From positions 558,001 to 622,000 of the forward strand of contig NZ_FNSY01000001.1 in assembly GCF_900105515.1 (NCBI RefSeq): a stretch of 64,000 bases of DNA, read 5' to 3'. This DNA comes from Streptomyces sp. 2131.1 (lineage in GTDB: Bacteria > Actinomycetota > Actinomycetes > Streptomycetales > Streptomycetaceae). The notes under the pieces were generated by a model that was not told the origin of the DNA, made no database searches, and saw only the letters and a list, made by a program, of their open reading frames with translations. The position numbers and the translations under genes were made by a program. This document shows, in pieces, positions 42,008 to 47,678 of the stretch; within the stretch, counting starts at the first letter, position 1, and each line of letters opens with the position of its first letter.

Positions 42008-42068
42008 GCACGCGGCGGACCCCCGGTCCGGCCCGCGCGTCCCTCCGGCTATCCTGGCCGCCACACCG

Positions 42069-42142
42069 GACACGGGGTGCCCCGCACAGGGGCTGAGATC
42101 ACACCCGTCGAACCTGAACCAGTTAGCACTGGCGGAGGGATG
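42069..42142 (+). promoter_or_regulatory. TPP riboswitch (THI element)
   Basis: The conserved blocks are in order: GGGGTGCCC near 42074, GGGGCTGAGATCACACCCG around 42089-42107, and CCTGAACCAGTTAGCACTGG then CGGAGGGA at 42113-42140. These are the thi box's P2/P4 and pyrimidine-sensing parts. It ends 6 nt before the transporter ATG, so it probably masks the ribosome site (GGAGGG) when TPP is bound. Confidence 0.95.
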
Positions 42143-42147
42143 TCTTC

Positions 42148-43530
42148 ATGTCCTTGTCGCATGCCCGGGACGAGCGCGCCGCTTTCGGCGGGCGCATGCC
42201 GACCGCGCCCGGCGATCTGCGCGTCGAGGCGCACGGGATAGCCCCGGTCCCGGAGTACCGGCGCTACGGCGGTCCCGGGCGGCTGTTCACCGTCTGGTTC
42301 GCGCCCAACCTGACCATGACCGGCGTCTTCACCGGCACCGTCGGCATCGCGCTGGGGCTGGACTTCGGCACCGCGCTCGCCGCCGTCGTGCTCGGCACCC
42401 TCGTCGGCGCCGCGCCCACCGCGTATCTCGGCACCTGGGGAAGCCGCACCGGATCGGGGCAACTGCCGCTCGCACGGCTGGCGTTCGGGCCGGGTGTGGT
42501 GCTGCCCGGCGCGCTCCAGTGGCTGTCGTCGATCGCCTGGGACGCGCTGATCGGGCTGTTCGGCGGGGACGCGCTGGCTCAGTTGTGCGGCTGGCCGTTC
42601 TGGCTCGGGGTCCTGGTCATGATGGCCGCTCAGGGCGCGCTCGGTGTTCTGGGCTACGAGGTGATCCACCGGCTCCAGACCGTGATGACGTTCGCGCTGG
42701 CCGCCGCCTTCACCGTCCTCGCGACGAAGCTCCTGAACGGTGTCGACCCCGTGACCAGCGGTTCCGTGCACGGCGCGGACCGGGCCGGGGCCTTCGTCCT
42801 GACCTGCACCATCGCCCTGAGCCTGGCGCTGTCCTGGGCCCCGTACGCCAGTGACTTCAGTCGCTACCTGCCGCGCGAGACGTCCCGGCCGCGCATGTTC
42901 TGGTGCACGCTGGGCGGGATCAGCGCCTCCTTCGTGGCGGTCCAGACGATCGGGCTGTGGGGTGCCTCGGTCTTCACGGACCAGACCGCGCGCGGCATCG
43001 ACATACTGCTGGGCGGGGGCGCGCTCGGCGCGTTCGGGCTGCTGGCGGTGGCGCTGGCGGCGCTGTGCAGCAACGCGATGAACGACTACAGCGGTTCGCT
43101 GGCGTTGCAGACCATGGGGGTACGCGTGCCCCGCCCGGCCGCCGCGGCGCTCGCCGCCGCCCTGGGCTTCCCGCTGGTGCTGTGGATGCACGCGGCGGAC
43201 ACCACGGCCCGCTTCCAGAACGTCCTGCTCCTCGTCGGCTACTGGATCCCCGGCTTCGTGGCGATCGTGTCGGTGGACTGGCTGGTCCGGGCCAGGGAGC
43301 GGCGCGGCGCCCCCGTCGACCTCGCCGCCGAGCACGCACGGCCGCGCCCGTGGTGGCCGGCGCTCGCCGCGTTCGCCGTGGCCTTCGCGGCTGCGGTGCC
43401 GTTCATGAGCACCGGCCTGTACGTGGGACCGGTGGCCGAGGCGCTGCACGGGGCGGACCTTGCGTACGGGGTGGCGTTCCTCGTGGCGCTCGCGGCCTAC
43501 GCCCCGCTGCGGATGCGCCGGGTCCGCTGA
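42148..43530 (+). CDS. cytX: NCS1-family transporter, probable hydroxymethylpyrimidine/thiamine-precursor permease
   Basis: 460 residues with about 12 hydrophobic helices, NCS1/purine-cytosine permease family: TVWFAPNLTMTGVFTG at the first helix and SWAPYASDFSRYLP, the family signature. The TPP riboswitch directly upstream shows control by thiamine status, so it is best read as a CytX-type importer of hydroxymethylpyrimidine rather than a cytosine permease. The ribosome site is inside the riboswitch. No other thiamine gene is adjacent. Confidence 0.88.
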   Translation: MSLSHARDERAAFGGRMPTAPGDLRVEAHGIAPVPEYRRYGGPGRLFTVWFAPNLTMTGVFTGTVGIALGLDFGTALAAVVLGTLVGAAPTAYLGTWGSRTGSGQLPLARLAFGPGVVLPGALQWLSSIAWDALIGLFGGDALAQLCGWPFWLGVLVMMAAQGALGVLGYEVIHRLQTVMTFALAAAFTVLATKLLNGVDPVTSGSVHGADRAGAFVLTCTIALSLALSWAPYASDFSRYLPRETSRPRMFWCTLGGISASFVAVQTIGLWGASVFTDQTARGIDILLGGGALGAFGLLAVALAALCSNAMNDYSGSLALQTMGVRVPRPAAAALAAALGFPLVLWMHAADTTARFQNVLLLVGYWIPGFVAIVSVDWLVRARERRGAPVDLAAEHARPRPWWPALAAFAVAFAAAVPFMSTGLYVGPVAEALHGADLAYGVAFLVALAAYAPLRMRRVR

Positions 43531-43536
43531 GCGGGC

Positions 43537-45129
43537 TCACTCCTCGCCGGTCCACGGCCAGTGCGCCCGGCGGCCGTTCTCGATGAGGCCGGCCATCCGG
43601 AACGCCGCGTCGGTGAGGCCGCCGAAGGTGTGCCGGTTCGGCCCGGCGGGAGCGTGGGCCGGCCGGTATCCGGCGAGGTTCCAGGTGTGGACCGGGACCC
43701 CGGCCGGCACCGGGTCGGATGTCCGGGGGCCGTACGGCAGGGCCTGTTCGTCGGTGACGAGGAGCACCCGGTCGTGGTCCAGGTAGTGGGGGCGCAGCGC
43801 CTTCACGGTGTCGGTGCCGCCGAGCCGGTGGAACCGCTTCAGCACGTCGAGGACCGGTTCGCCGGGCGCGTACGGGACGGGCGCGCTGCGCCAGCCGAAC
43901 TCCACCAGGTCCGCCTGCTCGGCGCGCAGGGCCAGCGCGGTGCCGAACACGGCGGCCGCGTCGGCCCGGCTGAGCGTGGACCGTGCGGAGACGGTGTCGC
44001 AGAACATCGAGTCGGACCGGTCGACCAGGACCAGCGTCCGGCCGGACAGGGCGGGCACGTGAGCCAGGCAGTGGCCGAGTGCCGCTTCCAGCGCGGCGGC
44101 CCAGCGCGGTGCGGCGTGCCGGTGGGCGGCGAGGTAGCGGAAGGGGAACTGCCGTGCGCGGGCCACCTCCGCGGGGTCCGCGATGCGTGCGGCGACGTGA
44201 TCAGCGACCGCGTCGGCGATTCCGGCCTCGTCGAAGTTGCGCAGGTTCCGCAGGAGCGCCATGGGCCCCATGCCGGGGATCAGCGCCTCCCAGACGGCCG
44301 CGTCCATCGGCCCGTGCAGCCAGCCCGCCACGGACTCCCAGGTCATGCCGGCCCCGGTGAGCCGTTCCGCGCCGCCGGGCCCGGTGACCAGGGCCCGCCG
44401 CTCGTCCGCCGGGGTGGCCAGGAGCGTCCGCCGGGCGGTGAGCGTCCGGTCGCCTTCCGGCGCCTCGGCCCGCTCCGGGTGGTGGCGGCGGTCGAGGGCG
44501 TACCGGAAGAGCGCGCCCTGCCAGGGCTTGGCCGGGTCCGGTGACGCGTGCACCAGGTTGAGCACGTCACCGAAGCGGAAGTCCCGGGACTCGGTGTCGT
44601 ACTTCAGCAGGGACCGGGAGGTGTAGAGCCTGCGTACGGCGTCGGCGACGCCCCGCTTCACGGGCTGCGGGACCTGGCGCCCGTACGTCGCGATCCAGTG
44701 CGCGAGCAGTTCGCCGGGCTCGTCGGCGCGTTGGAGCACCGAGTCGACTACGGACCGGTTGGAGGGCCCGTCGCTCGTCCCGGCGGCGAGCCGTGCGCGT
44801 ACGTACGCGGCGGCGCCGACCAGGGAGGCGGTGCGCATGTTGCCCTCGCCGCGCAGCCAGCGCAGCAGTCCGGCCGTCCAGGCGGGGTGCTCGACGGCGA
44901 GGCGGGCGACGAGGGCGGTGTACCGGTCGTCGCGATACGCGCCGCTCTCGTAGAAGGTCTCCTGGGAGACGAAGTTGGCGACGGCGAGGAGGAAGAGTTT
45001 CTCGCGGGGCTCCCGGATGTACGCCGTGCCGCCCTCGTAGGTGTGGAGGTTCCGTGCGGTCGAGCCGGGCACGGGCCGGGTGGCGGCGAGGTGGCGGGCG
45101 GCGGCCGAGACATGCGGGGCCACCAGCAT
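43537..45129 (-). CDS. TROVE domain protein (bacterial Ro60/Rsr ortholog)
   Basis: 530 residues. TROVE HEAT-like repeats cover about 25-360: REPREKLFLLAVANFVSQETFYESG, LLRWLRGEGNMRTASLVGAAAYV and MGPMALLRNLRNFDEAG. A vWA domain follows, with the MIDAS motif VDRSDSMF (DxSxS) and TNWLAGY-like end. Ro60 proteins bind Y RNAs and misfolded RNAs and guide RNA quality control or rRNA maturation in bacteria. The ATG at 45129 has no clear ribosome site, and the frame is closed by a stop 21 codons upstream. No PNPase or RtcB neighbour is present. Confidence 0.9.
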   Translation of the reverse strand: MLVAPHVSAAARHLAATRPVPGSTARNLHTYEGGTAYIREPREKLFLLAVANFVSQETFYESGAYRDDRYTALVARLAVEHPAWTAGLLRWLRGEGNMRTASLVGAAAYVRARLAAGTSDGPSNRSVVDSVLQRADEPGELLAHWIATYGRQVPQPVKRGVADAVRRLYTSRSLLKYDTESRDFRFGDVLNLVHASPDPAKPWQGALFRYALDRRHHPERAEAPEGDRTLTARRTLLATPADERRALVTGPGGAERLTGAGMTWESVAGWLHGPMDAAVWEALIPGMGPMALLRNLRNFDEAGIADAVADHVAARIADPAEVARARQFPFRYLAAHRHAAPRWAAALEAALGHCLAHVPALSGRTLVLVDRSDSMFCDTVSARSTLSRADAAAVFGTALALRAEQADLVEFGWRSAPVPYAPGEPVLDVLKRFHRLGGTDTVKALRPHYLDHDRVLLVTDEQALPYGPRTSDPVPAGVPVHTWNLAGYRPAHAPAGPNRHTFGGLTDAAFRMAGLIENGRRAHWPWTGEE

Positions 45130-45201
45130 CTCGGACCAGACCTTGGAGACGCGTCGGGAGTGACGAGGCAGGGAATCCCCCCGGATTCAAGGAGTGTTGA
45201 A

Positions 45202-45301
45202 CGCGCCCGCGCCCGGCGAGATCAAGTAAGTCGGCGGCGGCATCACTTGGAGTGTCAGAAGGAAGTAGCCGCAGCCGGGCGCATCGCCGGGCGCGGGCGC
45301 G
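45202..45301 (-). other. 100-nt hairpin upstream of the TROVE gene, candidate Y-like RNA
   Basis: 18-bp perfect arms at 45202-45219 and 45284-45301 enclose 64 nt that can fold further (near-perfect 9-bp arms GGCTGCGGC/GCCGCCGCC on the minus strand and a CACT/AGTG tip). Size and long terminal stem resemble bacterial Y RNAs, which are usually encoded next to the Ro gene. No protein gene is supported here. Direction (minus, same as TROVE) is inferred; an attenuator or a plain cruciform is possible. Confidence 0.4.
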
Positions 45302-45424
45302 ACGAAACCGTACAAGAGCCTCCGCCGGGCGCACCACCGAATTACGTCGCCCCTTGTTCTGCGCTTCAACTGCCGCCGTTCTCAGCGGTATTGACCCAGG
45401 TGAAACACTTCAATACTGCCAGCC

Positions 45425-45821
45425 GTGGCCCGCGCACGGGAGGCCCAGAAGACCTGGGCCGCACTGCCCGCCTCCCGGTGCCGCGACCATCTGCTGCGCT
45501 GGAAGAAGGCCCTGGCGACCGGTTTGGACGAGGTGGCCCGGACCGTTTCGGAGGAGACCGGGAAACCGGCCGGGGACGCGGCGTCGGAGGTGGCGCTCAC
45601 GCTGGAGCACCACGCCTGGGCCGCCCGCAACGCGGAACGGGTGCTGCGCCGGCGGAAGGTGGGCACGGGCCTCTTCACCGTCCACCAGCGGGCGTCCCTG
45701 GCGCACCGGCCGCTCGGCGCCGTCGGGTTCATCGGCCCCTGGAACTACCCCGTGTACACACCCATGGGCTCCATCGGATCGCCCTGGCGACCGGGAACGC
45801 GGCAAGACGTACGGGCTCTGA
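45425..45821 (+). pseudogene. Aldehyde dehydrogenase remnant, internal deletion and frameshift
   Basis: The frame from 45425 reads the N-terminal part of an NAD-dependent aldehyde dehydrogenase: ARAREAQKTWAALPASRCRDH, TVSEETGKPAGDAASEVALTLEHHAWAARNA and GFIGPWNYPVYTPMGSIG. After that a one-base loss shifts the frame; a second frame gives ALATGNA and then breaks. The final bases, in a third frame, encode GKTYGL followed by a stop, as at the C-terminus of such enzymes. So roughly 1 kb of the middle, including catalytic Cys and Glu, is missing, and the first 40 or so residues are also absent. Non-functional. Confidence 0.7.
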
Positions 45822-45866
45822 GACGGCCTGGGCGCGGCGGCCCCGTGCGACGGCCGCGCCCCCCGT

Positions 45867-47678
45867 TCAGTTCTCGTAGAGCCCGGACAGCGCGTCGGCG
45901 TACTTGTCCCGGATGACCCGGCGCCGCATCTTCAGCGACGGCGTCAGCTCACCGGTCGCCGGCCCCCACTCCTCGGCCAGCAGCTCGTACCGCTTGACCT
46001 GCTCGCTCCGGCTGAGGCGGGTGTTGGCGGCGGCGACCGCCCGGTCCACCTCGGCCAGGACGGCGGGGTGTGCGGCCAGCCCTGCCGGTCCCCCGTCCAC
46101 GGGGACGCCGTTGGCCTCCGCCCAGGCGGGGGCGGCCTCCGCGTCGAGTACGAGGAGGGCGACCAGGTAGGAGCGGTGGTCGCCGTGCACCATGGCCTGG
46201 CCGATCAGCGGGTGCTCCTTGAGCGCGTTCTCGACCAGGGCCGGCGAGACGTTCTTGCCGGTGGAGGTGATGATCATCTCCTTCTTGCGGTCGGTGAGCC
46301 AGAGGTAGCCTTCCTCGTCCAGCCGGCCGATGTCCCCCGTGGCCAGCCAGCCGTCCGCGTCCACGGCCGGCAGCACCGAGCCGTCGGGGCGCAGATATCC
46401 GGAGCAGACGGACGCGCCCCGGACCATGATCTCGCCGTCCTCGGCGACCCGGACCTCGACGGACTCCACCGGGCGGCCCACCGAGCCGAGCCGGAAACCG
46501 GCCCTCGGGCTGTTGCTGGTGGCGACCCCGGCGGTCTCGGTGAGCCCCCACGCGTCCATGACGACGATCCCGAATCCGGCCCAGAACCTCACCACCTCGA
46601 CCGGCATCGGTGCCGACGCGCTGGCCGTCCAGGTCACCCGGTCCAGACCGCCCGCCGCCAGCATCGGCAGCAGCACGTCCTCCCGCGCCCGCGTGTACCG
46701 CTTCTCCAGTCCGGCGGGCGGGGCCTCGCCGCGCTCCCGGTGACCGACGTGCTCGCGCCCCACCGCGAACGCCTCCTCGACGATCTCGCGCTGCCCGGCG
46801 GGCATCAGCGCGAGAATGCCGCGCACGGTGGCGGACAGCTTCTCCCAGATCCTCGGCACCCCGAAGAACTGCGCAGGCCGCACCTCGCGGACCACGGCGT
46901 CCACCCCCGCCGGGTCGGCGCAGAGGTGAACGTGCGAGGCGCGGTGACAGGGCAGGTAGATCCCGAGCATCCGCTCCGCGATGTGGGCGAGAGGCAGATA
47001 GCAGATGTGCTCGACATGCGGCGGCAGCTCCACGACCGCGTCCAGCGCCAGCGCGTTGGACAGTACTTGACGGTGTGTCAGGACAACGCCCTTGGGCTCG
47101 CCGCTCGTACCCGAGGTGTAGACGACGGTCAGCGTGTCCTCCGGGCGGGCCGTGTCCAGTTGCCAGGCGAACCCGTCCGGCACCGGCTCCCGGAGCAGTG
47201 CGCCGTACGGGAGGTGGCCGCCCTCCGTGCCCGGTTCGGCGACCACCAGGCGTTCCAGCGGTGTGCCCTCGTCGGTCAGCAGCGGTTCCCAGAGCGCCAC
47301 TTGGGGCGCCCCGTCCACCACTGCGATCCTGGCCCGGCAGTTGCGGGCGATGTGGGTGATCTGCTCGGGCGCGGCCGTGCCGTAGACGCTTACCGGGACC
47401 GCGCCGAGGCGGACCAGCGCCAGGTCGGACAGCCAGTGCTCGGGCCGGTTGGGCATCATCAGCAGCACCCGGTCGCCGCGCCCGGCCCCGAGCGCCCGGT
47501 ATCCGGCGGCGAGGACACGCGTGTGCGCCTCGACCTCGGCCCAGGTGTACGTCGACCAGCCGCCGTCCTCGCGGGTGCGCCGCCAGGACAGCGCGGGGAG
47601 TTCGCCGTACTCCCGGGCGTTGCGGGCCAGGAGCCGGGGCAGTGTGCGGTCGGGCAGGTCACCGGTGGTGCGGGGCAT
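45867..47678 (-). CDS. Long-chain acyl-CoA synthetase (AMP-forming, FadD-like)
   Basis: 603 residues. The AMP-binding P-loop motif VVYTSGTSGEPKGVVLTH is at about 175-195; later PLAHIAERM, FGVPRIWEKL, GLTETAGV and the DWLATGDIGRLDEEGYL-like motif with ITSTGKNVSPALVENAL near the C-terminus. This is the FadD15/long-chain ligase group of actinomycetes. It loads fatty acids onto CoA. ATG at 47678 with AAGGAGG. Monocistronic; the aldehyde dehydrogenase remnant ends 45 nt before its stop. Confidence 0.92.
   Translation of the reverse strand: MPRTTGDLPDRTLPRLLARNAREYGELPALSWRRTREDGGWSTYTWAEVEAHTRVLAAGYRALGAGRGDRVLLMMPNRPEHWLSDLALVRLGAVPVSVYGTAAPEQITHIARNCRARIAVVDGAPQVALWEPLLTDEGTPLERLVVAEPGTEGGHLPYGALLREPVPDGFAWQLDTARPEDTLTVVYTSGTSGEPKGVVLTHRQVLSNALALDAVVELPPHVEHICYLPLAHIAERMLGIYLPCHRASHVHLCADPAGVDAVVREVRPAQFFGVPRIWEKLSATVRGILALMPAGQREIVEEAFAVGREHVGHRERGEAPPAGLEKRYTRAREDVLLPMLAAGGLDRVTWTASASAPMPVEVVRFWAGFGIVVMDAWGLTETAGVATSNSPRAGFRLGSVGRPVESVEVRVAEDGEIMVRGASVCSGYLRPDGSVLPAVDADGWLATGDIGRLDEEGYLWLTDRKKEMIITSTGKNVSPALVENALKEHPLIGQAMVHGDHRSYLVALLVLDAEAAPAWAEANGVPVDGGPAGLAAHPAVLAEVDRAVAAANTRLSRSEQVKRYELLAEEWGPATGELTPSLKMRRRVIRDKYADALSGLYEN

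Follow-up and report, generated by a model that had tools for sequence, protein, structure and literature searches.

A long hairpin that precedes a gene for a Ro60-like protein in Streptomyces sp. 2131.1 raises the question of whether it encodes a Y RNA and, if so, of what kind. Bacterial Y RNAs and their placement near rsr are already known. The role of the tRNA-like part of these RNAs is, to our knowledge, not settled, and Chen et al. (2014) reportedly found one or more tRNA-like Y RNAs in every species that they examined. The locus was analyzed within a stretch of 64,000 nt (GCF_900105515.1, NZ_FNSY01000001.1, positions 558,001-622,000 of the forward strand), which is referred to here as the window and whose coordinates are used throughout.

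Passages of two papers (PMC4726728, PMC8394870) describe Y RNAs as Rsr-bound RNAs that are held by Rsr through their lower or terminal stem, and the Y RNA of D. radiodurans as tethering Rsr to PNPase, an assembly named RYPER. According to a passage of the latter (PMC8394870), it is through its tRNA-like domain that the Y RNA contacts PNPase. Among the titles and abstract openings returned by our literature searches, none evidently concerned Streptomyces Y RNAs.

The rsr gene and its product

43537..45171, minus strand: rsr (Ro60/TROVE-vWA) coding sequence, 544 amino acids, with the conserved CTG at 45171-45169 taken as the start

The original prediction held that a complete TROVE/vWA protein is encoded at this locus. 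This was borne out by a Pfam TROVE match (58 bits against a cut-off of 23, covering residues 275-336 only), by an AlphaFold model with a mean pLDDT of 82.4 and by the Foldseek matches of that model. All 13 matches at E<=0.001 were TROVE-domain, Ro60 or Rsr structures; these included 9kop and 9l5y (Thermus phage Ro60), 1yvp (Ro autoantigen) and 2nvo (D. radiodurans Rsr), with alignments of about 500 columns and TM-scores of about 0.65. The model predicts a full-length Ro60/Rsr fold, in which a helical-repeat ring is closed by a vWA domain. This fold is like that of 2nvo and 1yvp, with the putative MIDAS residues kept, although sequence identity in the structural alignments is 15-18%. In the window protein, residues D370, S372, S374, T439 and D460, which we take to be the vWA MIDAS site, are invariant in 36 protein rows.

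A genome-wide search found a single copy of the TROVE gene in the window's genome. In a genus sample of 199 genomes, which was searched with the window's Rsr, 96 genomes carried a TROVE gene (called at E<=1e-30). Two G081 fragments and a partial G172 match were left out of the protein-search matches that were fetched, and a truncated match (L100, genome G005) was omitted from the tree and assigned no start codon. Twelve loci, including the window, are referred to below as the clade; their proteins are 74-84% identical to the window protein with matches from residue 1, and they form one side of a branch (SH-aLRT 99, length 0.23) in a rapidly built tree of 99 proteins. A collection from named genomes, S. 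lavendulae and S. echinatus among them, comprised 80 rsr loci, the best 34 of which were scanned with a covariance model, R1. Of these, 31 were assigned to the clade; the criteria were sequence identity, a match over the full length and the start region, with the tree not being used, and L176, L177 and L179 were excluded as outside the clade. L178 (72% identity) was retained on the strength of its start region and of a match that is full-length, and its CTG start is thus partly by choice. The 12 and 31 clade rows (43 rows) have six contigs in common, as judged by equal lengths, and represent 37 distinct loci and leaders.

Outside the rsr region, no ORF family was common to at least 4 of the 12 clade loci in the 5 kb scanned (the flanks of L013 and L102 being shorter), and of the clade loci only L102, the window's closest relative, has flanks in common with it. 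Upstream of the candidate Y RNA, a fragment of an aldehyde dehydrogenase gene stands alone (45425-45913, plus strand; Pfam positions 36-148 of 461) and is probably a remnant. On the other side, a TPP riboswitch (42063-42157, plus strand; 72.4 bits) precedes a cytosine/purine/thiamine-type permease gene that converges on rsr.

A conserved hairpin upstream of rsr

45202..45301, minus strand: candidate minimal Y RNA of about 100 nt, judged by fold, clade conservation, covariation and covariance models
45284-45301 / 45202-45219, minus strand: outer stem of the candidate RNA, 18 bp, perfect
45263-45277 / 45232-45248, minus strand: inner stem of the candidate RNA, inside the outer stem

The long hairpin that had been described at 45202-45301, with 18-bp perfect ends and an inner stem-loop, was confirmed. 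Its inverted repeat is the only perfect one of 18 bp with a spacer of 40-120 nt in the 64-kb window, and the minus-strand fold of 45195-45310 has an MFE of -62.4 kcal/mol (z -5.1), with none of 200 dinucleotide shuffles as low. The plus strand of the region folds too (z -5.3), and folding alone therefore leaves the strand of the RNA undecided. Placement of the RNA on the minus strand, the strand of the TROVE gene, had been an assumption; covariance models built from relatives now support it, as do promoter-like elements in the same orientation. Model R1 scored the window RNA at 107.8 bits and model R2 at 66.8 bits, both on the minus strand, with the window being one of the 12 training rows of R1 and one of the 57 training rows of R2. 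Both models were trained on loci from the same genomes or contigs that were then searched, so that positive matches are partly by construction, while negatives are not.

An Rfam scan of the window returned a TPP riboswitch and tRNA only, with no family at the hairpin. A covariance search with the Rfam Y RNA-like family, which had been proposed as a check, did not detect the window RNA in the 351 bases scanned, even with the cut-off relaxed to E<=10. Two other families, isrG (14.9 bits) and VA (14.5 bits), were dropped as candidates for the hairpin, their scores being far under the thresholds. At 10 related rsr loci, Rfam also gave 0 matches at gathering score, and the models built here thus detect Streptomyces Y RNAs that are missed by Rfam at that score.

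The RNA was found 5' of rsr at 12/12 clade loci in the genus search and at 31/31 clade rows from the named genomes (R1 scores of 75.7-131.3 bits), and hence at all 37 distinct clade loci, window included, in the same place and orientation. Across the 100 rsr loci collected, each had at least one related RNA upstream. In the 7.49-Mb genome of the window, R1 gave one match (E<=1).

For the analysis of covariation, removal of near-identical RNAs left 57 rows (alignment A3); a duplicate L089 row was taken out of the wider alignment. Compensatory changes in the stems among relatives, to which the original prediction had looked for confirmation, are present. In the structure-blind alignment of these 57 non-redundant minimal RNAs, 97.5% of cells pair, as compared to 41-54% in slid controls. 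Changes on both sides were seen for 8 of 15 pairs (33 cells) and, in the outer helix, for 5 of 7 pairs, and none of 500 shuffles matched any of five measures. Three unpaired elements show little or no variation in the 57 RNAs: TGCG, a TACTTC-type box (A or C in second position) and most of GATCTCG. In the 12-member clade alone, 28 pairs give 335 cells, of which 96.7% are paired; covariation there is modest, since most of these pairs are invariant (3 of 28 pairs with both-side change, a value reached by 13 of 500 shuffles).

Distribution of the RNA and the TROVE gene

Model R2 found the RNA in 98 of the 199 genomes of the genus sample (E<=0.01). As with the covariation and the conserved boxes, the outcome does not refute the original prediction: the RNA co-occurs with the TROVE gene, both being found in 93 genomes, neither in 98, the TROVE gene only in 3 and the RNA only in 5. 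The TROVE-only genomes are G044, G059 and G081; at the rsr loci of the first two (L085 and L075), tRNA-like Y RNAs are present. Weak or short R2 matches at rsr were seen in G140, G141 and G189 (42-43 bits over 46-47 bases) and in G091 (35 bits).

Degraded TROVE/rsr pieces were identified beside the RNA (L114-L117) in four of the five RNA-only genomes (G066, G125, G170, G186 and G196), in the case of L117 by one weak piece (E 4e-4). At these four loci, the Y RNA seems to outlast the protein gene. G196 has two weak RNA matches, of 45 and 42 bits; the one that was fetched (L118) is tRNA-like, and no TROVE piece was found near it in 7 kb.

Minimal and tRNA-like Y RNAs

Like YrlA (RF02553), the type found in Salmonella and Mycobacterium smegmatis, the window RNA is adjacent to rsr and has a long terminal stem, the part that holds Rsr in YrlA according to passages of PMC4726728 and PMC8394870. 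The inner stem of YrlA is framed by boxes similar in kind to those of the window RNA, as judged from the alignment of a relative. Unlike YrlA, the window RNA is without the T arm, acceptor and D arm module, has a length of about 100 nt and is missed by the Rfam model. The proposal that the hairpin is a Y RNA stands in substance, being supported by the covariation, the boxes and the co-occurrence with the TROVE gene, with the refinement that the RNA is a minimal variant that lacks the tRNA-like domain.

Further analysis of tRNA-like RNAs used model R3, which was built on 19 tRNA-like RNAs with class I modules, with a cut-off of 55 bits set by ourselves; class II type modules score at least 75 bits with R3, and a strongly divergent tRNA-like Y RNA could escape it. 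The window RNA scores 25.9 bits, compared to 58-149 bits for RNAs counted as tRNA-like, and the tRNA-like domain (T, acceptor and D arms) is absent from it by sequence, fold and R3 score. R3 also matches minimal RNAs, and the boxes of the minimal RNA also frame tRNA-like Y RNAs at other Streptomyces rsr loci, where the minimal RNA aligns with the window RNA. Among the 100 rsr loci, 87 have the minimal RNA (by motif), 83 have a tRNA-like RNA (R3, at least 55 bits) and 17 have the minimal RNA only; by comparison, a tRNA-like Y RNA was found at 0 of the 12 clade loci with the same cut-off. Most of the other loci combine a minimal RNA with one or two tRNA-like ones, and many carry a tandem of a tRNA-like, a minimal and a second tRNA-like RNA (seen by eye and as double R3 matches). 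At L022, the one locus scanned in this way, the tRNA-like RNAs scored 44.7 and 32.5 bits with Rfam YrlA on the rsr strand, the gathering score being 69.

Five clade genomes (G164, G101, G016, G039 and G134) also carry the other rsr type, with tRNA-like Y RNAs of 84-148 bits. In the seven genomes with the clade type only (G000, G147, G038, G041, G143, G167 and G162), no tRNA-like Y RNA was detected with R3. Weaker matches were rejected: all five R3 matches in the window's genome (21-37 bits) overlap tRNA or tmRNA genes, those of 36.9-47.5 bits in clade-only genomes (for the other six, E<=0.001 only) are tandem tRNA-Asn genes, and an RF02553 match of 38.4 bits in the window's genome is a tandem tRNA-Asn pair. 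On the protein tree, the minimal-only label requires 3 changes (0 of 500 shuffles as low), and the minimal-only form thus also occurs outside the clade (L054, L079, L081, L089 and L090). Copies of tRNA-like RNAs elsewhere in the genome were found in G123, which holds L054, and in G030, G110 and G013. What sets this variant apart is that a minimal RNA is the sole Y RNA detected in the genome, together with an rsr that appears to start at CTG. The presence of the minimal-only form in 7 of 12 clade genomes makes the role of the tRNA-like part directly testable in streptomycetes.

At 14 loci (L020, L029, L034, L045, L048, L051, L053, L059, L063, L070, L073, L074, L084 and L088), the RNA nearest to rsr is tRNA-like, with a module that resembles, by eye, a permuted class II tRNA; these modules have a tRNA-Leu-like D arm (GTGGCGGAA) and, in several cases, a long hairpin like a variable arm. 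The modules at other loci are of the class I type, with L118 and L128 representing another D-arm type.

Ro-like proteins of Streptomyces and Gordonia phages are also related to the window protein, with 44 phage records matching it and identities of 39-47% among the 20 records listed. Y RNA-like matches were found upstream at 5 of 5 phage Ro loci examined; unlike in the window, these are tRNA-like matches, with the best per locus at 49-87 bits. In Gordonia phage VanLee, an annotated tRNA-Arg (L135:2126-2197) lies inside an 86.8-bit tRNA-like Y RNA match (2126-2269) and may be a misannotated Y RNA.

Start codon, leader hairpin and promoter-like elements

45173..45188, minus strand: 6-bp hairpin GAATCC-GGGG-GGATTC with a Shine-Dalgarno-like G-run in and beside the loop, immediately before the CTG
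45307..45312, minus strand: -10-like TACGGT
45332..45337, minus strand: -35-like GTGGTG, 19 bp from the -10
45340-45344, minus strand: AT-rich element preceding the -35-like box

Judged by sequence, the rsr frame most likely starts at CTG 45171 and not at ATG 45129, from which the ORF list reads 530 amino acids. A CTG located 42 nt before the listed ATG and behind a G-run is present in 37/37 distinct clade leaders; over the 13 codons between CTG and ATG, these leaders have 49, 23 and 56 minority letters at the three codon positions. In the window, the first in-frame stop upstream of the CTG is 5 codons away, and ATG, GTG and TTG are all absent between that stop and ATG 45129. The starts of the other 88 rsr loci, by a motif rule, were ATG (81), ATC (2), GTG (1) and TTG (1), with 3 not assigned. 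At L079 and L081, which have the minimal Y RNA only, rsr apparently begins at ATC after the same Shine-Dalgarno hairpin.

A leader hairpin of at least 6 bp around the G-run was found in 35 of the 37 clade leaders. Under a slightly different rule, 81 of the 99 loci in the wider set had it, versus 49 of 810 GGG-containing control 26-mers from the same loci. The hairpin at 45173-45188 could alternatively represent a palindromic DNA operator.

The promoter-like patterns were picked after viewing the sequences and without a shuffled control; TANNNT is present at the -10 position in 10/12 clade loci (absent from L105 and L108), and nTGGnn (in the same place within 2 bases) and the AT-rich element each in 12/12. 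If these patterns are real, the RNA would begin at or close to 45301, where the outer stem has its first base.

Proposed function and alternative explanations

We consider it likely that 45202-45301 on the minus strand is a Y RNA and the partner of the Rsr/Ro60 encoded downstream of it. One promoter, at approximately 45307-45337, probably serves both the RNA and rsr, with the RNA being the 5' part of a transcript from which it would later be freed by processing or termination. Rsr would bind the outer stem and the unpaired boxes UGCG (5' side) and UUGAUCU (3' side), and the bound RNA could, by analogy with known RoRNPs, stabilize the particle and gate the entry of misfolded RNA into the Rsr ring. 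Beyond the UACUUC box, a short loop caps the inner stem, in place of a tRNA-like effector module. Since it has no such module, the RNA should gate without the reported PNPase-holding module, or tether PNPase in another way; tethering as described for D. radiodurans would not be expected. A minimal Y RNA without the tRNA-like part suggests that the clade has a simpler RNA quality-control particle.

A more specific proposal, which we hold to be evenly balanced, is that the clade does without tRNA mimicry: its sole Y RNA would be a bare Rsr-binding hairpin, the particle would work without a PNPase-tether module, and rsr output would be set by a CUG start that follows a hairpin presenting the Shine-Dalgarno sequence. 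If this is true, the gating and tethering functions of Y RNAs would become separable through comparison with the tRNA-like version, which is also present in 5 of the 12 clade genomes.

As the hairpin sits downstream of the promoter-like elements and ahead of the start codon, it could instead be a cis-acting leader of the rsr mRNA, such as an autoregulatory Rsr-binding site or an attenuator, that never becomes a free RNA. No separate rsr promoter was identified between hairpin and start, a region that lay outside any promoter scan, and the adjoining Shine-Dalgarno region is itself in a conserved hairpin. However, other Streptomyces rsr genes are preceded by related RNAs in tandem, and further copies lie away from rsr, for example before priA, which argues for a trans-acting RNA, and bacterial Y RNAs are reported as Rsr-bound in passages of PMC4726728 and PMC8394870. 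A leader that acts only in cis is hence distinctly improbable in our judgment, even if the roles of cis-acting leader and Y RNA do not exclude each other. The absence of a tRNA-like module at 12/12 clade loci, and the failure to detect one in the 7 of 12 clade genomes with this rsr type only, would also fit a relic, in which the tRNA-like Y RNAs were lost and the remaining hairpin is a mere stability partner without effector role. This appears unlikely, considering that the structure has been kept in 12 species along a long branch, which argues that the RNA is under selection.

A long, GC-rich, intergenic inverted repeat could in principle also be an intrinsic terminator or a mobile element (MITE- or REP-like) that is there by chance. 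On the minus strand, however, no T-run follows the stem, and the fixed place and orientation before rsr in all distinct clade loci and the conserved unpaired boxes are at odds with either origin. The single R1 match in the genome, together with the covariation, appears to contradict this explanation already, and we regard it as hardly credible.

RNA copies away from rsr

Y RNA-like RNAs located off rsr were seen at seven loci (L120-L126; for example, L120:3437-3546 and L123:3339-3606), where they lie directly upstream of priA, a replication restart gene. The identity of priA was indicated by a PriA_3primeBD Pfam match in 6/6 ORFs scanned (L123 excluded). A literature search on both terms returned no publication evidently on a link between Y RNAs and priA. 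Among the best 30 priA loci, from 57 genomes with a match, 4 had clear RNA matches (42-53 bits) and 1 had a weak match (24 bits); 3 of the genomes with the 4 clear matches were already represented among L120-L126.
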